From positions 1-46,438 of the forward strand of contig NZ_LMVP01000090.1 in the NCBI RefSeq assembly GCF_002287235.1: 46,438 bases of DNA, written 5' to 3'. Source of the DNA: Methanosarcina spelaei. GTDB lineage: Archaea; Halobacteriota; Methanosarcinia; Methanosarcinales; Methanosarcinaceae. How positions within the stretch are numbered: position 1 is the first letter of the stretch; each line of letters opens with the position of its first letter. This document shows positions 9,990 through 36,757 of this stretch, piece after piece. The notes under the pieces are model-generated. The model ran no database searches, had not been told where the DNA came from, and was given only the letters and a program-made list of their open reading frames with translations. The position numbers were made by a program, and so were the translations under genes.

Positions 9990-10461
9990 AAAGATAAAAA
10001 GGAAAAGATTATAACTTAATTACCGGCTTTTCATTTCTTTTAGGATCTGTAGACTTTCCAATTCGCATTGTCAAAGTGTTTATAAACGCTTTAAATCGCT
10101 ATAAAAATTTGATTCTTAATACTAATTGAAAATTTTCCCTATAAATGCCTCTTTTTTACTTGGCAGTTCAAGCAATAACTTTCTTCAAAGAAAGAGATGT
10201 TATCCGATGTTTCAACTGATTGCTAGCACAATATTCTTCGATATAAATGAATACTTTTCCAAAAAACCTTCCCATTTCTGTCCCTTCTTTATAATATTTA
10301 TCAATATATCTTTACTTAATAACATAAAATATTACTTTTAATGATTCCGGTAGTTTTAAGTAACATCAAAAAAATAATATTAATTAGGGGGAGGTTTTGG
10401 AGCTGTGTCTAGAGACGCAAGCTTTGAGACGGATGTCTCCTTAAATTTAGGGAGTTGGAAT
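9990..10461. other. 470-bp spacer upstream of the PRC-barrel genes
   Basis: AT-rich, with no convincing gene. Near its right end GAGAC and GTCTC (about 10426-10439) form a small hairpin ahead of TTAAATTTAGGGAGTTGGAA, the ribosome-binding segment shared with the downstream paralogues. Confidence 0.5.
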
Positions 10462-11265
10462 ATGGCAAATAGGGATAATCCGGATTTTTTGTCAGCAAGC
10501 ACAATAAAAGGAGATAAGGTCGTCAATAGGGAAGGAGAAGATCTTGGGAAAATTGAAGAATTAATGATCGATCTCCATGATGGAAGAATAGGATACGTCG
10601 TTCTTTCTTTTGGTGGATTTCTTGGTCTGGGTGATAAGCTGTTCGCCATTCCCTGGCAGGCTTTTAAACTGAGAACACACGAACATGCCTTTTTACTTGA
10701 TATTCCTAAAGAGACTCTTGAAAAGGCAGAAGGGTTTGATAAAGACAACTGGCCTGTAACTTCACATGAGTGGCTTTCCACTGTATATGGCTATTATGGG
10801 TATCAACCTTACTGGCAGACAGGAGTGCCTGAAGAAGCTGAATCACAAAGGATGGCCAGGACAAGAGGCACATCTTCAGAGAGAGAAAATCCAGATTTCT
10901 TGTCCGCAGACACGCTAAAAGGGGATAAGGTCGTCAATGCAGACGGAGAGGATATCGGAAAGATTGAAGAATTCATGATTGATCTTACAGATGGAAGAAT
11001 AGCATATGTCGTCTTGTCTTTTGGCGGATTCCTGGGCCTGGGTGATAAACTATTTGGTATACCCTGGCAGGCTTTTACACTAATGCCACACGAACACGTT
11101 TTCTTACTTGATGTTCCCAAGGACGTCCTGGAAAAAGCAGAAGGTTTTGATAAAAATAACTGGCCTGTAACTAATCGTGAGTGGCTTGCTACTATGTACA
11201 GTTACTACGGATATCAGCCTTACTGGCAGACACAAAGAATAGAGAGCCGTCCGGGCAATATCTGA
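10462..11265 (+). CDS. Two-domain PRC-barrel protein
   Basis: A 267-residue protein with two PRC-barrel domains at about residues 5-90 and 137-222, joined by a short charged linker. Each barrel opens NPDFLSA, continues through GKIEELMIDL..GRIGYVVLSFGGFLGLGDKLFAIPW and closes with EKAEGFDKDNWPVT...YYGYQPYWQ. PRC barrels occur in the photosynthetic reaction-centre H subunit and in RimM, and in many small archaeal proteins of unknown role. An upstream GTG at 10405 would add 19 residues. I prefer ATG 10462 because all three paralogues start MxxRxxPxFLS after the same GGGAG site. It is the first of a tandem family, probably made by gene and domain duplication. Confidence 0.85.
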   Translation: MANRDNPDFLSASTIKGDKVVNREGEDLGKIEELMIDLHDGRIGYVVLSFGGFLGLGDKLFAIPWQAFKLRTHEHAFLLDIPKETLEKAEGFDKDNWPVTSHEWLSTVYGYYGYQPYWQTGVPEEAESQRMARTRGTSSERENPDFLSADTLKGDKVVNADGEDIGKIEEFMIDLTDGRIAYVVLSFGGFLGLGDKLFGIPWQAFTLMPHEHVFLLDVPKDVLEKAEGFDKNNWPVTNREWLATMYSYYGYQPYWQTQRIESRPGNI

Positions 11266-11400
11266 ACCTTAATCATAGATACAGGTATAAGTACTGGTAA
11301 ATGGGGGGTTGGAACTAACTTAATCAGGAGAGAAATTTGTAATCGTTCTTGGAGTCCAGGCTTTAAAAACACTTATCTTTTTAGTTTGGGGAGCTAGAAT

Positions 11401-12195
11401 ATGGTAGATAGAGATGATCCGGATTTTTTGTCAGAAGGTGCACTAAAAGGTAACAAGGTCATCAATAAAACTAGAGAAAATATTGGGAAGATTGAAAAAT
11501 TAATGATTGATCTTGCGGACGGAAGAATAGCATATGCCGTATTGTCTTTTAGTGGAATCCTGGATAAGGGAAATAAACTGTTTGCTATTCCCTGGGAGGC
11601 TCTTACACCAAAAATACATGAGCATGCTTTCATTCTCGATATCTCCGGTGAGGTTCTGGAAAAGGCCGAAGATTTCGATAAGAATAGATTGCCTTTAACC
11701 CTAGATGAACTCTCCGGAGTCTACACTTATTATGGACATCTGCCTTACTGGCAAACTGTAGTGGCAAAACAAGCCGGATTGCCTGGTGAGACCGAATCGG
11801 AAAGAATTGTTAGAATAAGAAGAACATCAGTTAGAAAATATCCAGATTTTTTGCCGGCAGACACAATAAAAGGAGAAAAGGTTGTCAGTATCGCTGGAAA
11901 GAATCTTGGAAAGATTGAAGAGTTAATAATTGACCTCCAGGCTGGAAGAGTGGCATATGCCGTCCTCTCCTTTGGTGAGTTTTCGGGTATGAACGGTAAA
12001 TTCTTTGCTATTCCCTGGCAGGCTCTTCAAGCAAAATTTCAAGAACACGCCTTCTTACTTAATATTCCTAAGTATACTCTTGAAAAAGCAGAAGGCTTTG
12101 ATAAGGATAACTGGCCTGTAACCACCTATGAGTGGCTTTCCACTGTGTATAGTTACTATGGATATCAGCCTTACTGGCAGATACCCAGACTATAA
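11401..12195 (+). CDS. Two-domain PRC-barrel protein, diverged paralogue
   Basis: A 264-residue protein with two PRC barrels (about 5-90 and 141-226). It keeps DPDFLS, GKIEKLMIDL, NKLFAIPWEAL and the YYGHLPYWQ end of the first barrel, but its first barrel is more diverged than those of its neighbours (SFSGILDKG instead of SFGGFLGLG). ATG 11401 follows GGGGAGCTAGAAT, the arrangement of the sister genes. The 135-bp upstream spacer resembles the leader of the next gene, so the duplication unit included the leader. No signal peptide or membrane segment is visible. The function is unknown. Confidence 0.85.
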   Translation: MVDRDDPDFLSEGALKGNKVINKTRENIGKIEKLMIDLADGRIAYAVLSFSGILDKGNKLFAIPWEALTPKIHEHAFILDISGEVLEKAEDFDKNRLPLTLDELSGVYTYYGHLPYWQTVVAKQAGLPGETESERIVRIRRTSVRKYPDFLPADTIKGEKVVSIAGKNLGKIEELIIDLQAGRVAYAVLSFGEFSGMNGKFFAIPWQALQAKFQEHAFLLNIPKYTLEKAEGFDKDNWPVTTYEWLSTVYSYYGYQPYWQIPRL

Positions 12196-12355
12196 AATCT
12201 GTCAAAAATGTTTGAGCCTTTATCGAGAAAAAAGAACAAGTATTAACTACTGGGAGATAGGGTTGCTGGAACAAACTGAATCGGGGGAAAATTAAAGTTA
12301 TGCCTGGAACGCAGGCATTTAAACATATATTTATAAAATTTAGGGAGTTGGAAAT

Positions 12356-14299
12356 ATGGCAGATCGAAATAATCCAGAATTTTTGTCATCAAGCACAATA
12401 AAAGGAGATAAGATTGTCAATGAATCTGGGGATGACCTTGGAAAGATTGAAGAATTAATGATTGATCTTCGTGACGGAAGGCTAGCGTATGTCGTAATGT
12501 CTTTTGGAGGATTCCTGGGCCTGGGCGATAAATTGTTTGCTATTCCCTGGCAAGCATTTAGATTAAAACTTCATGATCATGCCTTCATCCTTGATATTCC
12601 CAAGGACGTTCTGGAAAAAGCAGAAGGCTTTGACAAAGACAACTGGCCTATAACCTCCCGTGAGTGGGTTTCCACCGTATACAGCTATTATGGATACCAG
12701 CCTTACTGGCAGCTAAGAGTACCTGAAGAAGTCGAATCACAAAGGATGGCCAGGACAAGAGGCACATCTTCAGAGAGGGAAAATCCAGATTTCTTGTCCG
12801 CAGACACGCTAAAAGGGGATAAAGTTGTCGATAAATCTGGAAAGGATACCGGGAAGATTGAAGAGTTTATGATTGATCTTCAGGATGGAAAAGTAGGGTA
12901 CGTTGTAGTCTCACATGGTGGATTTCTGGGTATAGGCAATAAATTGTTTGCTCTTCCCTGGGAGGCTCTTTCACTTAGACTGCATGAGCATGCTTTCGCT
13001 CTCAATGTGTCTAATGAGACTTTCGACAAAGCAGAGGGCTTTGGCAAGGACAACTGGCCTTTAACTCGTGAGGAGCTCTCCAGAACCTACAGCTACTATG
13101 GGTATCAACCTTACTGGCAGATAGGAGTGGCAACACAGGCAGCAGGAGTTTCGGCAGCAATGCCAGTTGAAGGCGAACCTGAAAGGATGGCCAGAATGGA
13201 AAGAGAAGGACAGGTGCCACTGGTAGGAGCAGAAGAAGAGAGAAAGACGCAGCAAGAAAGAGAAAGGCTTGAAGAGTTAAGGAGAACACAGGAAGAAAAA
13301 ATTTCCCAGCTAGAAAAACAGCAGATGAAAGCCCAGAAACAGGTAGATGCCGAAAGGGAAAGGTTGATGCGTCTGGAAAAAGAGCGGATTGAGGCTGAGA
13401 GGCAGGCACAGGCTGAGAAACAAAGGTTAGCACAATTGGAAAAAGAGCTACAGGAAGCAAGAAGACAGGAAAAAATGGAAGCAGTAGCCCGTCTTGAAGA
13501 AGAGTTGAGGTCAGTACAGGTACAGGAGGGAACCCGTCGAGATAGACTGGCTCAACTGGAAAGGGAGTGTACAGAAGCCCAGAGACAGGCCGAGACCGAG
13601 AGACAGAGACTGGCACAGCTGGAAAGAGAACGTACTGAAGTAGAAAGTCAGGCCGAGACCGAGAGACAGAGACTGGCACAGCTGGAGAGAGAGCGGGTAG
13701 AAGCTGAGACTCTGACCCAGACGAGAGTTATGGCAGGTAGAGAAATGCCTGACTTTTTATCAGCAAGTACGATAAAAACGGATAGAGTTGTCAATGCTGC
13801 TGGAGAAGACCTTGGAAGGATCGAAGAACTAATCATTGACCTGGAAAATGGTAAAATAGCATATGCAGTGCTTTCCTTTGGCGGATTCCTGGGCATGGCC
13901 GACAAATTCTTTGCAATTCCCTGGCAGGCTTTTACATTGAGGCCGCATGAGCATGCCTTCTTACTTGATATTCCCAGGGATGTCCTGGAAAAGGCAGAAG
14001 GCTTTGACAAGGACAACTGGCCTTTAACTCGTGAGGAGCTCTCCAGAACCTACACCTATTATGGATACCAGCCTTACTGGCAGACAGGCGTAGCTACAGG
14101 AATGCCTAGAGAAACCCAGCCACAGAGGACAACTCGTACTCAAAGTGAAAGACCCCTGGGAACAGCAGAAGAATTAATAGCACGGCAGGAAAAAGAACGG
14201 ATAGAAAAGCTGGAAAAGACAGAAACCGATGAAGGGAGACTTGAGCAGTTGGAAAGAGATAAAGAGATAGCAGAAAGGCGGGAACGCAAATATCACTAA
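12356..14299 (+). CDS. Three PRC barrels with long coiled coil
   Basis: A 647-residue protein. PRC barrels lie at about residues 5-90, 141-226 and 462-547. Between the second and third, residues about 280-458 are a highly charged coiled coil built on repeats such as LAQLERERTEAERQAETERQ, encoded by near-identical DNA units around 13560-13690. A second charged helix ends the protein (about 575-647). The second barrel and the linker before it are almost identical in DNA to the first gene of the cluster (RMARTRGTSSERENPDFLSAD), pointing to recent duplication or conversion. It may scaffold the smaller PRC proteins. No catalytic motif is visible. ATG 12356 has GGGAG upstream, as in the paralogues. 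Confidence 0.85.
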   Translation: MADRNNPEFLSSSTIKGDKIVNESGDDLGKIEELMIDLRDGRLAYVVMSFGGFLGLGDKLFAIPWQAFRLKLHDHAFILDIPKDVLEKAEGFDKDNWPITSREWVSTVYSYYGYQPYWQLRVPEEVESQRMARTRGTSSERENPDFLSADTLKGDKVVDKSGKDTGKIEEFMIDLQDGKVGYVVVSHGGFLGIGNKLFALPWEALSLRLHEHAFALNVSNETFDKAEGFGKDNWPLTREELSRTYSYYGYQPYWQIGVATQAAGVSAAMPVEGEPERMARMEREGQVPLVGAEEERKTQQERERLEELRRTQEEKISQLEKQQMKAQKQVDAERERLMRLEKERIEAERQAQAEKQRLAQLEKELQEARRQEKMEAVARLEEELRSVQVQEGTRRDRLAQLERECTEAQRQAETERQRLAQLERERTEVESQAETERQRLAQLERERVEAETLTQTRVMAGREMPDFLSASTIKTDRVVNAAGEDLGRIEELIIDLENGKIAYAVLSFGGFLGMADKFFAIPWQAFTLRPHEHAFLLDIPRDVLEKAEGFDKDNWPLTREELSRTYTYYGYQPYWQTGVATGMPRETQPQRTTRTQSERPLGTAEELIARQEKERIEKLEKTETDEGRLEQLERDKEIAERRERKYH

Positions 14300-29001: not shown

Positions 29002-30390
29002 TTACCATACATTCAATATCCACTCCCTATCCTTTTTGTATTCCATATCGGTGAAAAGTGTGTTTGCCATCTGTTCAGCGAGCCATATAGCGCCTTCATA
29101 TCCAACAACTGGATGGCGGTACAATCCTGCACGATCGAAAGTAGGAAAACCCACACGTACCATAGGGATATTGTTGTCAATAGCAGTCCAGCGACCCTTG
29201 GAATGCCCCAGGATAAGATCAAGTTTAATTTCCTTATCCTTGATCCTCCTTTCAAGTTCCCACAGATCTGCATTCATAACAATTTCCATATCAAAATCTA
29301 CTTTTTCCTGGAATGCTTTGATGCGCGGATCGCCCTTATACGTGTTATTGTCATCGCCAAGAAGAAGAAGCACGGGTTTCATCTCCATATCGAGACAGAA
29401 TTCAGCAAGGCCTATGACTAGGTCTGGGTTTCCGTAAATGGCAACCCTCTTGTCGGCAAAAAACATGTGGGTAAGGTCCGTAATTGCATCGATTGCAATT
29501 CCCCTCTCACGAACAAGTGATTCGGGAATCGGTTTTCCGGTCATTTTTTTCAAATTCTGCAGGAAGGTATCCGTATTACGGATTCCGATCGGAGTTGGTC
29601 CTATTATTGCAGGAACATCGAACTCGCTTTCTAGATATCGAGCGGCTTTCGCACCCTCATACTTATTCAATGCAATTGTTCCCATTGCGTCCGCAGTTCC
29701 GGTCAGATCTTCTATCGTCGTACTGCCATGGGCAAATCCACTTTTATCCGGCATCAAAGGAGAATCAAAGCTTTCGATTTCGAAGAGGACTGTTGCATCT
29801 ATATCCATTGCTGACAGAAGGTGCTTGAGTGCTGTAACATCTCCGGGATTGACCCATCCGGTGATTAGATTGATTTTTCCATTAGGTTTATCTTTTTTTG
29901 CAAACGCCTTTACTATATCATGGACTGCCACATCATATCCGGTCACCATACTTCCTTTAAAACTTGGAGTGTGGATTGGAATAAGGTGTACTTCCCGATC
30001 TGCATATTTTTCTTTCAAAAGCTTTTTGTTTAGTTTCCGAATGAGACCGTCAATATCATCGCCGATGACTTCCGTCGAGCACGTCGTGATGATCGGTACG
30101 ACCTTCACATGTGGATACCTCATCAAAAGAACATCTACAGCCTCCTCTACTCTATTAAGAGCCCCAAACACCGCACCGTCCTCGTGAAGAGATGAAGATG
30201 CAAGCTCGAAGCTATCCTTGAAATGCTGTGCGAATAGCATACGAACGAACATTACGCATCCCTGTCCCCCATGAACGATAGCGATACAGTCCTTTATTCC
30301 TATACTGGCATATTGTGCTCCACAGGGTTGGCATGTGAATATGGGGTTGATAATTCCTGGACGCTCTCGTTGTTTTAGTTCACAAGACAT
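29002..30390 (-). CDS. anfK: Fe-only nitrogenase beta subunit AnfK
   Basis: A 462-residue nitrogenase FeFe-protein beta chain. It begins MSCELKQRERPGIINPIFTCQPCGAQ. Cys20, Cys45 (GGQGCVMF) and Cys104 (ITTCSTEVIGDD) are the three expected P-cluster ligands. It pairs with AnfD and AnfG to form the catalytic hexamer. It is the last gene of nifI1-nifI2-anfD-anfG-anfK, 15 bp after anfG, with AGAGGAAA before ATG 30390. The length matches the Anf/Vnf group (about 460 residues) and is shorter than NifK (over 510), which supports the alternative-nitrogenase call. Confidence 0.95.
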   Translation of the reverse strand: MSCELKQRERPGIINPIFTCQPCGAQYASIGIKDCIAIVHGGQGCVMFVRMLFAQHFKDSFELASSSLHEDGAVFGALNRVEEAVDVLLMRYPHVKVVPIITTCSTEVIGDDIDGLIRKLNKKLLKEKYADREVHLIPIHTPSFKGSMVTGYDVAVHDIVKAFAKKDKPNGKINLITGWVNPGDVTALKHLLSAMDIDATVLFEIESFDSPLMPDKSGFAHGSTTIEDLTGTADAMGTIALNKYEGAKAARYLESEFDVPAIIGPTPIGIRNTDTFLQNLKKMTGKPIPESLVRERGIAIDAITDLTHMFFADKRVAIYGNPDLVIGLAEFCLDMEMKPVLLLLGDDNNTYKGDPRIKAFQEKVDFDMEIVMNADLWELERRIKDKEIKLDLILGHSKGRWTAIDNNIPMVRVGFPTFDRAGLYRHPVVGYEGAIWLAEQMANTLFTDMEYKKDREWILNVW

Positions 30391-30405
30391 GATATTTCCT
30401 CTTAC

Positions 30406-30756
30406 TTAATAAATTGGGTTAGTGAGTTCTTGATTAAGTGACCCATTGATAGTTAAGTAATCTATACGCCCCTTAAGCCCCTGCATAAGCAGTTTGATAT
30501 CTTTTTTGTCCATTATGCCTAACCATGGGCACGTTTTTTTGAACCCATTTGCTAAATACACAGCATCTACCCAATAGCACCTATCTGAAGGTGTGCTGAG
30601 ATTAACAGGTTCGTCGCACAATAACTGCATGGTTTTTGTAAGAATCTCTTCGTTTTGTCTCTCTCTGTCCCAGGCACGTGAGTGAAACTGCCACAGGCAC
30701 CATTTCATAATAAAATCTGCAAGCTGCTCTACCCTGTCTTTCATAACATCATCCAT
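30406..30756 (-). CDS. anfG: Fe-only nitrogenase delta subunit AnfG
   Basis: A 116-residue delta subunit, present only in V- and Fe-only nitrogenases. The family core [26 protein letters not shown] is quoted here in part as [27 protein letters not shown] and [14 protein letters not shown] follow. ATG 30756 is preceded by GGTGAGG at good spacing; a GTG at 30768 would add four residues. It is shorter at the N-terminus than the roughly 130-residue Azotobacter protein. It sits 21 bp after anfD and 15 bp before anfK, and its presence rules out a Mo-type NifDK cluster. Confidence 0.95.
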
Positions 30757-30777
30757 TAATGACCTCACCTTCCTCTA

Positions 30778-32364
<1,587 letters not shown>

Positions 32365-32742
32365 TTATAGAAGGGCACTGTCTCCCTGTTCATCCGTTCT
32401 TACCCTAATGGCATCATCAACAGGACAGATGAAAATTCTCCCATCGCCGATTTCACCAGTTTGGTTTACCTTAATAATTGTTTCAACAATTGTGTCAACA
32501 TCTTCATTACGGGAAACTATGGAAAATAGGCGCTTGGGAATGTATTCCATTCTCCTTCCAGCCTTTATGCTCTGATCCAGAATTTCAGGGCGAATATCAA
32601 TTTCAAGCTCGGTTGCAATGCCTTTTTGTTTACCTCTTCCAAACACTGGAAGCGCAGTTAAACTAGGAACACCGAGCTTCTCGAGAGCTTCTTTTGTAGG
32701 AATAACTTTTTTTGGACGGATAATTGCAATTATTTCTTTCAT
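32365..32742 (-). CDS. nifI2: PII-like nitrogenase regulator NifI2
   Basis: A 125-residue GlnB/PII-family protein. MKEIIAIIRPKKV opens the fold and VFGRGKQKGIATELEI marks the T-loop side. The T-loop is longer than in NifI1, as expected for NifI2. It ends GRIFICPVDDAIRVRT. With NifI1 it binds the nitrogenase protein and switches activity off when fixed nitrogen is available, sensing 2-oxoglutarate and ATP; this is known from methanococci. It lies 13 bp after nifI1 and 21 bp before anfD. AGGAGGGTG precedes ATG 32742. Confidence 0.93.
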   Translation of the reverse strand: MKEIIAIIRPKKVIPTKEALEKLGVPSLTALPVFGRGKQKGIATELEIDIRPEILDQSIKAGRRMEYIPKRLFSIVSRNEDVDTIVETIIKVNQTGEIGDGRIFICPVDDAIRVRTDEQGDSALL

Positions 32743-32755
32743 AATTGCACCCTCC

Positions 32756-33073
32756 TCAAAGACCTACATCCCCTGTGCGTATCGTATATGCATTGTCAAC
32801 GGGGATGACAAAAATTTTACCGTCTCCTTGATGACCGGTGTATGCTTTGTATTTGATAATTTTAGCAACTTCTTCAACATGCTCATCTTTTACAACTAAA
32901 ATAAGCATGGTTTTAGGAAGCTCATCATAGTGTACTGTTCCGATCGTGATCCCATTTTGTTTTCCACGGCCGAATACGTCTATTTTTGTTAGTGAAACAA
33001 ATCCCCCTTCTGCAAGCCCTTCTATAACGTCATCAGCGGCTTCAGTACGTATTAAAGCTTTGATCATTTTCAT
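32756..33073 (-). CDS. nifI1: PII-like nitrogenase regulator NifI1
   Basis: A 105-residue PII-family protein: MKMIKALIRTEAADDVIEGL, FGRGKQNGITIG, and GDGKIFVIPVDNAYTIRTGD at the end. It is the partner of NifI2 in post-translational shut-off of nitrogenase. ATG 33073 has GGAGG six bases upstream; a TTG at 33100 that would extend the frame lies upstream of that site and is rejected. It is now the first intact gene of the operon, about 475 nt from the promoter block, an unusually long leader that contains a nifH-family remnant. Confidence 0.93.
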   Translation of the reverse strand: MKMIKALIRTEAADDVIEGLAEGGFVSLTKIDVFGRGKQNGITIGTVHYDELPKTMLILVVKDEHVEEVAKIIKYKAYTGHQGDGKIFVIPVDNAYTIRTGDVGL

Positions 33074-33210
33074 ATTAATCCTCCTTTCACCGCCGAACAA
33101 ACTTTGTCACACGAAACATCATTCGGCGGCAAATGAAGTTTTGTGGTGTACAATGAAGTTTTATGTTTTCTAGTGAATGAAATTGCATTCGTGAGGTTTT
33201 GCAATGACAT

Positions 33211-33430
33211 TTAAGTGATCAATCCTTGACCAGATCTTGTGATTACTTTTTCTACGTAATTCATATCAAGAGGCTTTGTGGCAACAAAAGTTTCTTTTCG
33301 ATAATTTCAAGTGCAAGCTTGTCTCTTCCTTTTTTTTGATTACACAGATTATCATAATCAACAAAAAGATCGGACTTTATTTCTGCAACGTTTTTTTCCG
33401 GCATATAGCGAGTTGTCCGAATTTTAATAG
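33211..33430 (-). pseudogene. Frameshifted C-terminal remnant of a nifH-family gene
   Basis: In the operon leader, the minus strand from about 33430 reads TRYMPEKNVAEI, then FVDYDNLCNQKKGRDKLALE. After a one-base shift near 33285 it reads ETFVATKPLDMNYVEKVI and ends at TAA 33211. This lines up along its length with the AnfH C-terminus: [46 protein letters not shown]. The N-terminal three quarters, including the P-loop and cluster cysteines, are gone. The segment from ATG 33404 to the stop is 194 bp, one base short of 65 codons. Confidence 0.7.
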
Positions 33431-33440
33431 TCTTTCAGTG

Positions 33441-33505
33441 TGTTTTTAACCTTTTTTTGCGCTTTTAACCTCCTTTTGTGCTTTTAACCTCCTTTTGTGC
33501 TTTTA
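33441..33505. repeat. 19-bp tandem repeat, 2.5 exact copies plus a decayed one
   Basis: GCTTTTAACCTCCTTTTGT occurs twice in full at 33461-33498, with partial copies on either side, between the nifH-family remnant and the operon promoter. Confidence 0.9.
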
Positions 33506-33547
33506 TCCCGTTATGTTTTTTTAACCATAATATATATTTATAACATA

Positions 33548-33587
33548 GGAAAACAGTAACCTATTTCCTATTTTATACTATATAAAA
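33548..33587 (-). promoter_or_regulatory. Promoter/operator block of nifI1-nifI2-anfDGK
   Basis: On the minus strand a TATA-like TTTTATATA is followed by the 30-bp block shared with anfH, containing ATAGGAAATAGGTTACTGT and ending TTCC. Conservation extends through the TATA region and falls off quickly outside. See the anfH copy at 26269-26308. Confidence 0.7.
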
Positions 33588-33599
33588 CTTTTCCACAAT

Positions 33600-33871
33600 A
33601 TGGGTTTGATATTATTTACTCTTTAGAACATAAACATCGGTGATTTTAAAATTTAATACAAAAGATATACTTAAAAATAAATTATATTTATTACCTAATC
33701 AGTATTTTAAGCTTATTTACTGTTATTTTAAAGCAGCTTCTTAATAGAAAAATCTAACAATTTATTATTTGCTCTTTTATCAACGTAATAAATTAGATAT
33801 GTTTGTGTATACCAATCTCATTCAGACTATTAAGAGTCAAATTGACGACAAAAATTAATGAAAATGAGTAG
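33600..33871. other. AT-rich spacer
   Basis: No gene is recognisable. It lies upstream of the anf operon promoter and downstream of the decayed molbindin gene. Confidence 0.4.
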
Positions 33872-34083
33872 TTAGTCCGTGCCTATCATCACACTTGAGG
33901 TCTTGAACGCTTCATAAACTTAGCTTCCTACTTTTAAATTCAGACTTTCAGCTGTGACGTTTTTGTGATGATACAAGTGATTACCGTTCTTTCAGGCGGT
34001 TCTATTACAATTTAAGAGTTTTCCATTCCGAAGATAATGCTTTTAACTTTACTTTTTAAGGCATTGCGTGCGCCTAGTTTCAT
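33872..34083 (-). pseudogene. Decayed molbindin (Mop/TOBE) gene
   Basis: The minus strand begins at ATG 34083, with CGGAG at normal spacing, and reads MKLGARNALKSKVKSI, close to the molbindin start MKxSARNxLKGKVxxI. After a TAA the same frame gives IVIEPPERTVITCIITKTS, matching the second Mop strand pair. After more stops and a frame change it ends VYEAFKTSSVMIGTD and TAA 33872, matching the family end VYAxIKASSVMIGTD. The total length of about 70 codons equals an intact molbindin. Molbindins bind molybdate or tungstate oxyanions. At least three stops and one frameshift make it non-functional. Confidence 0.7.
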
Positions 34084-34269
34084 ATTTGATTCTCCGTTCA
34101 AAGCAGGAACATAACTTCCGAAAGTTACTATGTAAATTTATCAATATGTGAACCTTGCAAATTTAATAACGTTTATTTCTATATAATCAACTTATATAAA
34201 ATAATATAATACTTTCACTCAAAAAATTGATGCCGATATGTTTATATTTGAGTTGTAAATCTATTTCTA

Positions 34270-34525
34270 ATACAAGTTCTTCATATAAGTCGTATGAGTT
34301 TGAACGAGAAGACAGTTTACTGGTGACAAGCGTGGATCTGAAAATCTACTAACTGGTAAACTACAGCAAAAAACTTGAACACGGTTTTTTTTCTATTGGG
34401 ATCTGGAAAGTTATGGTCTCTCCTGAATTCCCCCACCCGTCTTCCAGAATGCAGGGAAAAAGGCGTATTCCTGAAAACCTGTTGACATTGAAGTACTAGT
34501 TCATAAAAATGGTACAGTGCTGTGA
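34270..34525 (+). pseudogene. Decayed fwdD/fmdD-like gene (tentative)
   Basis: Directly upstream of the fwdB-like gene, broken frames recall the C-terminal half of formylmethanofuran dehydrogenase subunit D. GFFSIGIWKVMVSPE resembles FIPYGPWANxVVSPE of that family. After a frame change VDIEVLVHKNGTVL ends at TGA 34523-34525, like a FwdD C-terminus. Stops interrupt every frame. The order D then B is typical of fwd/fmd operons, which supports the call, but the similarity is short. The left boundary is a guess. Confidence 0.45.
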
Positions 34526-34601
34526 AATTACTGTGCACTGTTCATTGGCATGAAAGTGAACTGTTGTACAGCAAACAGAACAATGTTGAGAGGTCAGTAA
34601 A

Positions 34602-34685
34602 ATGCAAGACGAGAAGATACTATCGATTTTTTTTGAAAAATACATCGAAAATACAATATCAAAGTTTTGTTCCGGAGAGCAGTGA
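34602..34685 (+). CDS. Possible 27-residue small ORF upstream of fwdB-like gene
   Basis: ATG 34602 is preceded by GAGAGGT at good spacing, and the frame MQDEKILSIFFEKYIENT... ends at TGA 34683-34685, three bases before the next ATG. It has no recognisable domain. It may be a leader peptide coupled to the fwdB-like gene or a leftover of the decayed upstream gene. Confidence 0.3.
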   Translation: MQDEKILSIFFEKYIENTISKFCSGEQ

Positions 34686-34687
34686 GT

Positions 34688-36091
34688 ATGATTCACAAAA
34701 ACATAGTCTGTCCGGTTTGTGGAGCTGCCTGCGACGATATCCAGATTGAAATTAATGACGGAAAGATTGAAGCGAAAAACGTATGCAAGATGGGAATTTC
34801 CAGGTTTAAGGAGATTACAAGTCCCAGACGATTTAAACAACCCCTTCTAAAGTTCGGAGGGAAATTAAGACCGGTTTCCTGGGACGGAGCCCTTCAAATA
34901 GCTGCAGACATTCTGACTTCGGCGAAGCGTCCTCTGATTTACATAGGCAGTGAAACTTCCTGTGAAGCATATGAAGTTGGGCTCATGATAGGGGAATATC
35001 TTGGCGCAATTGTCGATACAGTCGGTAATGGGGCCATAGTGATGGGAACTCAGGAGGCCGGAAAAGTCGGTGCTACTGAAGGGCAGAAGAAAAACAGGGG
35101 AGATCTTATGGTTTACTGGGGAACAAACCCACTTGAATCCATGCCCAGACAGATGTCCAGATATGGGGTTTTTCCCAGAGGTTACTGGACAAAACGCGGG
35201 CGTTTTGACAGGACAATCCTTACTGTGGACCCAAGAAAAACACTAACTGCTAAAGCTTCTGACCTTCATGTGCAGCTTAAACCGGATTCAGACTATGAAC
35301 TAGTAAGTGCACTGTTGACACTTCTACACGGAAGAGTTCCCCATCATTCAGTAGAGGAAATTACAGGAGTTTCCATTCATGTTATGGAAGAGATGCTTGA
35401 TTTGATGAAGAACTGCAACTTTGGGACTATCTCAGTAGGGGTTGGACTGTCTTCATCTCCTGGGAAGTACAGGAATATCGAAATTGCCATGAACCTTGTG
35501 AAAGAGCTGAACAAACATTCTAAATTTTCTCTTGGAATTATCCGCAGTCACTGCAACGCGGCAGGCTTTAGCCAGGTTGCTTCCTACATGTACGGTTACC
35601 CCTTCGGGCTTGACTTCATGCGTGGACACCCGCGTTATAACCCTGGAGAATTCACAACCTTAGATTTGCTTCGAGAAAAGGACATAGATGCAGCTTTTGT
35701 AATATGTGCCGATCTTTTGAGTCAGATCCCGCCTGACTGTGCAGCTTACCTTGAAGAAATTCCTTTAATCTGCCTGGATACAATTCCCTGTCCAACTACG
35801 TCTCTCTCAGACATTGTGCTCCCTGGAGTCATTGACTCTATGGAGTGTGAAGGGACTTTCTACAGGCTTGACGATGTGCCTGTTTATTTTGAACCGTTCC
35901 TTGATTCACCGTTTAAATTCACTCAAAGTAACGAAGACACCTTAAAACAGCTTTTTGAAAAAATAAAAGAGAAAAAGAATCAGGATAGTATTTTTCAGGA
36001 CAGTATTTTTCCGTTTACATACATTGATGATCTTAAAACTCAAAATTGCTCTTCGAGATCTCATATTTCGAGTGGCCAGTTAAGTTTCTGA
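34688..36091 (+). CDS. FwdB-like molybdopterin protein lacking the metal-ligand Cys
   Basis: A 467-residue paralogue of formylmethanofuran dehydrogenase subunit B. The N-terminal [4Fe-4S] motif CPVCGAACDD...CKMG is intact. DLMVYWGTNPLESMPRQMSRYGVFPRGYW, TVDPRKTLTAKASDLHVQL and YPFGLDFMRGHPRYNPGEF follow the family closely. In FwdB/FmdB a Cys (or Sec) in an S-V-C-H-G-P segment near residue 118 binds Mo or W. Here that region reads TVGNGAIVMGTQEAG (from about residue 109), with no cysteine and a 3-4 residue gap. No FwdA, FwdC or intact FwdD is adjacent. The last ten residues come from a 42-bp repeat. ATG 34688 has GGAG upstream. It may be a decaying gene or a protein with a changed role. Confidence 0.85.
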   Translation: MIHKNIVCPVCGAACDDIQIEINDGKIEAKNVCKMGISRFKEITSPRRFKQPLLKFGGKLRPVSWDGALQIAADILTSAKRPLIYIGSETSCEAYEVGLMIGEYLGAIVDTVGNGAIVMGTQEAGKVGATEGQKKNRGDLMVYWGTNPLESMPRQMSRYGVFPRGYWTKRGRFDRTILTVDPRKTLTAKASDLHVQLKPDSDYELVSALLTLLHGRVPHHSVEEITGVSIHVMEEMLDLMKNCNFGTISVGVGLSSSPGKYRNIEIAMNLVKELNKHSKFSLGIIRSHCNAAGFSQVASYMYGYPFGLDFMRGHPRYNPGEFTTLDLLREKDIDAAFVICADLLSQIPPDCAAYLEEIPLICLDTIPCPTTSLSDIVLPGVIDSMECEGTFYRLDDVPVYFEPFLDSPFKFTQSNEDTLKQLFEKIKEKKNQDSIFQDSIFPFTYIDDLKTQNCSSRSHISSGQLSF

Positions 36092-36143
36092 GAATGGGAA
36101 ACTCATATTTCGAGTAGCCAGTTAAGTTTCTGAGAATGGGAAA
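36060..36143. repeat. 42-bp tandem repeat, 2 copies, overlapping the fwdB-like stop
   Basis: Copies at 36060-36101 and 36102-36143 differ by one base (GTGGCC versus GTAGCC). The stop codon at 36089-36091 lies inside the first copy, so the protein's end SHISSGQLSF is repeat-encoded. Confidence 0.95.
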
Positions 36144-36174: not shown

Positions 36175-36235
36175 AACTGGTTTGAGATAAGTTCTATATT
36201 AATTAATTTTCCTGATAAACAAAAGGAGAAATTTG

Positions 36236-36757
36236 ATGATAAAGAATTATAAAGACAAAAATCCGAAAATTTCAAGGACGGTTTTCATTGCGGATTCTGC
36301 AGATATAATCGGAGATGTAGAAATTGGAGATTATTCGAGTATATGGTTTAATGCTACGCTTCGAGGGGACCAGAATAAAATAAAAATCGGAAACCGAACA
36401 AGTATCCAGGATAATGTAGTAATTCATGTAGATTCTACTAATGAGGTACAAATCGGGGATAATGTCACTATAGGACACGGTGCCGTACTTCATGGTTGCA
36501 AAATCGAAAATAATGTAATTATAGGAATGAACTCTACAGTATTGAACGGAGCTGAGATAGGGAAAAATTCCATTGTCGGTGCAAATGCACTGGTTCCTGA
36601 AGGAAAAAAATTTCCTGAAAGAAGCCTGATCATTGGAGTTCCCGGGAAAGTAAAAAGAGAACTCGAAGAAGTAGAAATCGAGGCGATATTAAGAAATGCT
36701 GAAGAGTATGTAGAACTTACAAAGGAGTACAGGGAAAAGAGTAAAGTTAATGTTTAA
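36236..36757 (+). CDS. Gamma-class carbonic anhydrase-like protein (CamH type)
   Basis: A 173-residue left-handed beta-helix protein. Hexapeptide repeats (IGDVEIGDYSSIWFNATLRGD, quoted in part: IGDVEIGDYSS) run through residues 20-125, with a C-terminal helix. His64 (VVIHVD), His81 and His86 (GHGAVLHGC) are the three metal ligands of gamma carbonic anhydrases. The acidic loop of the exported Cam enzyme is absent, as is a signal peptide, so it fits the cytoplasmic CamH subgroup. It would interconvert CO2 and bicarbonate using Zn or Fe. ATG 36236 has AAAAGGAGA upstream. It follows the fwdB-like gene on the same strand; whether they share a transcript is unclear because a strong inverted repeat separates them. 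Confidence 0.85.
   Translation: MIKNYKDKNPKISRTVFIADSADIIGDVEIGDYSSIWFNATLRGDQNKIKIGNRTSIQDNVVIHVDSTNEVQIGDNVTIGHGAVLHGCKIENNVIIGMNSTVLNGAEIGKNSIVGANALVPEGKKFPERSLIIGVPGKVKRELEEVEIEAILRNAEEYVELTKEYREKSKVNV

Follow-up and report, generated by a model that had tools for sequence, protein, structure and literature searches.

Introduction

CO2 enters methanogenesis through formylmethanofuran dehydrogenase. The B subunit of this enzyme (FwdB or FmdB) holds molybdenum or tungsten through a cysteine or selenocysteine ligand, and His119 and His290 have been named as lying near the metal (PMC11656701). Relatives that do without the metal have been described. One is FhcB, which is related to FwdB, contains no metal and serves as the scaffold of a formyl hydrolase (PMC11656701, PMC10100899), and FwdB-family matches lacking the cysteine were noted in a survey (PMC10100899). 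In M. marburgensis, some complexes are believed to contain FmdBC in place of FwdBC (PMC12350162). Within Methanosarcina, Table 1 of a 2010 paper (PMC2838876) lists a gene named fmdB3 as present in M. acetivorans and M. barkeri and absent from M. mazei, and we infer that this is the gene studied here. It lies on one contig of the 5.09-Mb genome of Methanosarcina spelaei, a stretch of 46,438 nucleotides that was analysed whole and is referred to below as the window.

Results

fmdB3 is an FmdB paralogue with an altered ligand loop

The gene was found in 14 of the 30 Methanosarcina genomes searched, plus UBA293, and is a paralogue of single descent covering two clades. Clade A comprises the window protein with the eight orthologues closest to it (genomes G000, G003, G004, G005, G013, G014, G021, G026 and G029), and clade B the copies of G001, G002 (with one frameshift), G015, G024 and G025. 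The gene and its relevant parts are as follows, with canonical residues numbered as in M. wolfei.

34688..36091, + strand: fmdB3, FmdB paralogue without the Mo/W cysteine, 467 amino acids from ATG (590 bits to TIGR03129; 75-77% identity to two canonical FmdBs of the same genome)
34709..34786, + strand: N-terminal [4Fe-4S] cysteines C8, C11, C15 and C33, all kept (invariant in 9/9 clade A and 5/5 clade B sequences)
35018..35038, + strand: former ligand loop T-V-G-N-G-A-I, residues 111-117, with Gly113-Asn114 at canonical Cys118-His119 and three residues gone just before (from alignments)
35543..35554, + strand: R-S-H-C, residues 286-289, canonical R-G-H-C (Arg288-Gly289-His290), with Ser in place of Gly throughout clade A and in the five intact clade B rows

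The frame is open from ATG to TGA, and an alternative TTG start at 34667 would give 474 amino acids. The protein scores 590.1 bits against a cut-off of 327.8 for TIGR03129 (formylmethanofuran dehydrogenase subunit B), and its best solved relative is the formylmethanofuran dehydrogenase B chain 9sw6_J (E 1.5e-167). The claim of the original prediction that FwdB features and iron-sulphur cysteines are kept was thus borne out. The M. spelaei genome encodes further FmdBs at 77%, 75% and, more distantly, 33% identity to FmdB3. As had also been claimed, no FwdA or FwdC partner is present at the locus: no fmdA, fmdC, fmdD or fmdF open reading frame adjoins fmdB3 in the window or at the other listed clade A and B loci, yet contig C527 of this genome carries a complete fmdE(?)FACDB operon, and C82 a second fmdDB. 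We also observed a short near-repeat of the fmdB3 3' end after its stop codon (window 36060-36142), and the C-terminal tail past residue ~433 is variable among orthologues and has low model confidence.

The segment carrying the Mo/W cysteine had been predicted to be missing. The ligand is indeed absent, Gly113 standing in its place in a frame with no in-frame stop codon, but the C-H-G-P stretch was not deleted. Canonical FmdBs read V-D-S-N-A/S-T-x-C-H-G-P, the window protein V-D-T-V-G-N-G-A, and clade A as a whole D-T-x-x-N-G-A. Since clade B (D-S-N-T-T-x-G-N-G-P, x being I in the relatives shown) aligns gap-free, the Cys and His must have been replaced by Gly and Asn; in clade A, exactly three residues (S-N-A/T) are absent just upstream of the former pair. 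This is not a chance change, because the deletion and the absence of both residues are common to all nine clade A sequences, whereas every one of the 32 canonical FmdBs in the set has Cys-His. The ligand column is occupied in clade A by Gly (7/9), Asp (1/9) or Val (1/9). A selenocysteine or relocated cysteine as a replacement ligand was rejected, no new invariant cysteine being found among the nine clade A sequences. In clade B, three of the five rows have a new cysteine at position 128 (window-protein numbering).

Further changes accompany the loss of the ligand. Among 241 columns at least 95% conserved in the 32 canonical FmdBs, 17 are altered in all nine clade A rows, and eight of these fall in two segments, around Cys118 and Arg288-His290, to which 24 of the 241 columns belong (p 4e-5, with segment widths chosen by the analyst). 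Adding a third segment around H351, chosen post hoc, gives p 1.3e-7, to which no weight is attached. Ten columns are altered in all rows of both clades, excluding the frame-shifted G002 row: A34, K41, C118, H119, I126, L257, A289, G292, V349 and H351 (canonical-copy numbering). The G002 copy keeps R-G-H. At the same time, of 320 columns that do not vary among 19 canonical Methanosarcina FmdBs, FmdB3 retains 86-91%, just as many as genuine FmdBs of comparable identity from other genera, which fits the fold and partner surfaces being kept. Overall, the changes centre on the metal site, and the [4Fe-4S] cysteines and most family-conserved positions stay. Among the options originally put forward, this favours a non-catalytic carrier. 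The high identity to FmdB and the preserved family positions would also suit a regulatory decoy that throttles CO2 reduction by occupying FmdB's place, which we regard as distinctly unlikely.

An AlphaFold model of FmdB3 (mean pLDDT 74, pTM 0.67) falls below 50 at residues 114-116, 119-130 and 287-291; with such confidence at the active site, the ligand cannot be placed. The model matches FwdB with Z 38 and an rmsd of about 4 over about 410 residues. In the ranking by fold, the FwdB/FmdB chains are followed by FhcB (Z 26, 333 residues, rmsd 5.0), and NuoG/Nqo3 of complex I, which keeps its FeS clusters, matches with Z about 22.

The paralogue is under purifying selection

By the NG86 method, dN/dS in clade A has a median of 0.110 (36 pairs, range 0.062-0.169). 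The corresponding values are 0.118 for clade B (10 pairs), 0.190 for clade C, described below (1 pair), and 0.042 for canonical Methanosarcina FmdBs (171 pairs), so that the fmdB3 value is 2.6 times the canonical one. The reading frame is open in 9/9 clade A sequences. fmdB3 is therefore under purifying selection and is constrained less than the enzyme. For clade A, these values and the open frames speak against the early pseudogene that had been considered, and likewise against relaxed selection as mere decay. It is true that dN/dS lies above the canonical value and that decay is seen elsewhere, as a frameshift in G002, an 89-residue N-terminal remnant in G007 and a second, decayed copy in G001. 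Nevertheless, a pseudogene decaying slowly is a very improbable account of fmdB3 when nine of nine clade A frames are open, omega is 0.06-0.17 over 36 pairs and the leader described below is as constrained as the protein.

In a contig scan of 76 loci, four rows had the clade A loop, two the clade B loop and two a Tyr loop, and all of the Cys-less rows were Methanosarcina. The other rows read C-H-G-P, barring L077 and L120, whose loops were unreadable in frame; L077 is the G002 copy, of clade B form. Two further FmdB copies, L125 (G002:C2) and L123 (G026:C123), have C-H-G-P but broken frames, and are either decayed canonical copies or assembly errors.

The upstream region preserves remains of an fmd operon

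About 250 bases upstream of fmdB3 are conserved across 14 aligned loci, and the 3' part of this leader corresponds in alignment to the fmdE end and fmdF start of canonical operons, fmdE being the name that we assume for their upstream open reading frame.

34360..34600, + strand: conserved noncoding leader, its 3' part paralogous to the fmdE end (homology to the fmdE/fmdF junction; divergence of two blocks relative to the synonymous rate, 0.16 and 0.13)
34602..34685, + strand: fmdF-start scar of 27 codons, its end 2 nt short of the fmdB3 ATG (matched by alignment to the beginning of fmdF in canonical operons)
34475..34607, + strand: candidate structured RNA, a three-way junction closed by a stem (34478-34490 with 34581-34593) in which the GAGAGG preceding the fmdF scar is paired (fold z-scores)

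The two scars indicate that fmdB3 is the remainder of a duplicated fmdEFACDB operon after an internal deletion. Relative to the synonymous rate (78 pairs), the fmdF scar diverges at 0.45, and the low divergence of the two leader blocks suggests that a dead gene end was recruited as control DNA or RNA; the leader (window 34360-34607) is constrained as much as the protein. Fold z-scores were -3.2 to -4.5 in all five fmdB3 leaders folded, compared with -1.3 for the reverse strand and 0.0 for one canonical paralogue. Covariation was no better than in shuffles (97.5% versus 97.3%) and gives no support, so that the RNA structure is only a candidate, resting on the fold z-scores and the complementarity of the closing stem. 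The best Rfam matches on 33000-34800 were far under their gathering scores. Across the 30 genomes, an RNA model gave 14 matches above 135 bits, all of them fmdB3 leaders, and weaker ones up to 61 bits; those of the latter that could be placed were fmdE/fmdF junctions or a decayed copy. Judged on the placeable matches, nothing in the 30 genomes points to a riboswitch class that extends beyond fmdB3.

The recurrent neighbour is modABC

29002..33100, - strand: Fe-only nitrogenase anfKGD with nifI1/nifI2 (TIGR01861, TIGR02929 and TIGR02931 above cut-off)
36233..36757, + strand: gamma-carbonic-anhydrase-like protein, a neighbour at 5/9 clade A loci (NF050158, 191 bits, under the cut-off of 250)

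The names nifI1 and nifI2 are those we presume for two clustered open reading frames. The nitrogenase and carbonic anhydrase flank fmdB3 as originally described, but this setting is not general: the recurrent neighbour is modABC, not nitrogenase. modABC adjoins fmdB3 divergently in G001, G003, G005 and G029, partly in G021, G024 and G025, and also adjoins the G007 remnant. It was called from scores above cut-off for TIGR01256 and TIGR02141, with no decisive result for the ATPase, and other loci were assigned by sequence clustering. No mod gene was found beside fmdB3 in 7/14 genomes, the window included (the G015 contig ends there). All eight genomes with anf or vnf (the latter called from 56-58% identity) hold a Cys-less FmdB, compared with 16/30 overall (one-sided p 0.002, uncorrected for relatedness); the co-occurrence, confounded by clade, is a hint of Mo-poor life. 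The alternative nitrogenase was rejected as a functional partner, since its adjacency is not general and the association is at genome level only. Elsewhere on the window (10405-14299), three neighbouring open reading frames cluster together and share an internal repeat; we take them to resemble PRC-barrel repeats.

The molybdate importer ModABC beside the gene, together with the kept fold (Z 38 to FwdB), is consistent with the earlier suggestion that the pterin is bound differently. FmdB3 would then bind Mo/W-bisPGD with no protein ligand and catalyse or store something new, much as arsenite oxidase AioA coordinates its cofactor with no amino acid ligand (PMC10100899). We consider this unlikely, given that His119, the Gly beside His290 and canonical His351 have changed as well and that no fmdD adjoins, although FmdD could be supplied from elsewhere.

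In G003 and G005 (L038, L040), fmdB3 is followed head to tail on the same strand by fdhA and an fdhB/frhB-like gene, and this FdhA, at 902 bits to TIGR01591, carries a Cys-His of its own. The partner could accordingly be FdhA. FmdB3 might serve as a metal-free FeS relay or docking subunit joining FdhAB to the Fmd or Hdr machinery, persisting after the loss of fdhAB elsewhere, and Fdh-Hdr-Fmd supercomplexes are known (7bkb). This too seems an unlikely explanation, as fdhAB adjoins fmdB3 in just 2/14 genomes, while G011 and G022 hold a close fdhAB without fmdB3. Neither modABC nor fdhAB adjoins the gene at the window locus.

A second cysteine loss in bog and fen genomes

In two bog/fen Methanosarcina metagenome-assembled genomes, G016 and G017 (L049 and L048:922-6232), the FmdB ligand Cys118 is a tyrosine. 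This clade C protein sits in an operon with A, C and D, plus FmdF in G017, and has further changes: Arg288 is replaced by His or Asn, Gly289 by Ala or Ser, and canonical His351 by Asn. No other FmdB near 70% identity was found in either genome (an estimated 92 and 73% complete), and both may thus lack a CO2-reducing Fmd of that type. Compared by eye with four canonical FmdAs, the clade C FmdA keeps the stretches that we assume to be its metal motifs, the G016 copy being cut short by the script's frame.

In a first tree, clade C was placed next to A+B, though weakly supported (96/66). After masking of 54 alignment columns at the active site, none of 200 bootstrap trees joined them, and A+B itself was supported at 80/85 (99/90 unmasked); a single origin of all Cys-less FmdBs was thus discarded. 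The Tyr clade represents a cysteine loss independent of A+B. Five of the ten A+B columns are nevertheless altered in clade C as well (C118, A289, G292, V349 and H351; p 2e-4, or 1.4e-3 without the ligand column). That the same positions changed after each of the two losses suggests that they act together with the ligand as a single functional unit.

Discussion

We propose that FmdB3 is a catalytically dead B subunit, derived from the stub of a duplicated operon, that stands in metal-free for FmdB in Fmd complexes when Mo/W is short, a reading to which we give somewhat less than an even chance. The protein would no longer reduce CO2. It would dock with FmdA, FmdC, FmdD and FmdF supplied by the intact operons, and may act as a scaffold or electron relay that holds the complex and its FeS chain together under Mo/W scarcity. 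By analogy with FhcABCD, the substituted complex could keep the FmdA step (formyl-methanofuran <-> formate). In favour of this stand-in role are the ligand loss shared by both clades, the changes centred on the metal site and their partial recurrence in clade C, the purifying selection, the kept FeS cysteines and family positions, and the recurrent modABC neighbour. Further support comes by analogy from the presumed replacement of FwdBC by FmdBC, the molybdopterin-free ElpA under nickel limitation and the FhcB scaffold. Points against it are the fdhAB run in G003/G005, the absence of a mod gene in half of the genomes, the raised dN/dS and the weakness of the model at the active site. A more far-reaching version, which we regard as rather unlikely, is that in Mo/W shortage an exchangeable metal-free B subunit makes a formate-handling formyl-methanofuran hydrolase/ligase out of the CO2 reductase Fmd, that its synthesis is set by the structured leader RNA from the dead fmdE, and that the conversion became permanent in the bog/fen clade via Cys to Tyr in the main operon.

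The selected metal-free copy and the Tyr lineage, in which the sole full Fmd operon found has no ligand, make Mo/W-free running of the complex directly testable, for example on formate alone. They also imply that the annotation "formylmethanofuran dehydrogenase subunit B" is not proof of CO2 reduction.

Comparison with known systems

The fmdB3 of M. acetivorans and M. barkeri is, like the gene described here, a lone fmdB in Methanosarcina (PMC2838876); the main text of that paper uses the name once, and we found no mention there of a missing ligand, scars or leader. We found no earlier report of the missing ligand in fmdB3 in the literature searched, outside which most subscription papers lie.

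FhcB is likewise FwdB-derived and metal-free, its metal ligand being lost (Gly113 in FmdB3), and its role is structural, but it is 16% identical to FmdB3 and has no D subunit (PMC11656701). The aligned range of the two starts at model residue 51, leaving the FeS part of FmdB3 with no counterpart in FhcB, and the Fhc parallel is therefore incomplete. An FhcB would have FhcA, FhcC and FhcD alongside and its FeS region lost, whereas FmdB3 is a lone gene with FeS cysteines. Another MopB protein without Cys118, also with a proposed structural role, is the Molybdop clade found in type II HdrA clusters of Methanosarcinales (PMC12054007); it shares only 25-34% similarity with FdhG/FhcB and goes with hdr-fdhB clusters, whereas FmdB3 is a recent FmdB duplicate. 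ElpA of M. marburgensis resembles the proposed FmdB3 in having a molybdopterin-free MopB fold and serving under metal shortage, but it is FdhA-derived, truncated, nickel-responsive and part of Elp-Hdr (PMC12350162). NuoG/Nqo3 shares the MopB fold and the absence of a Mo cofactor (PMC10100899), although it belongs to a distant family and is a relay in respiratory complex I. Overall, metal-free MopB paralogues (FhcB, NuoG, ElpA) and the name fmdB3 of the lone gene were already known; new, within the literature searched, are the Cys to Gly state, the selection on the gene, the operon-stub origin, the conserved leader and the parallel Tyr clade.
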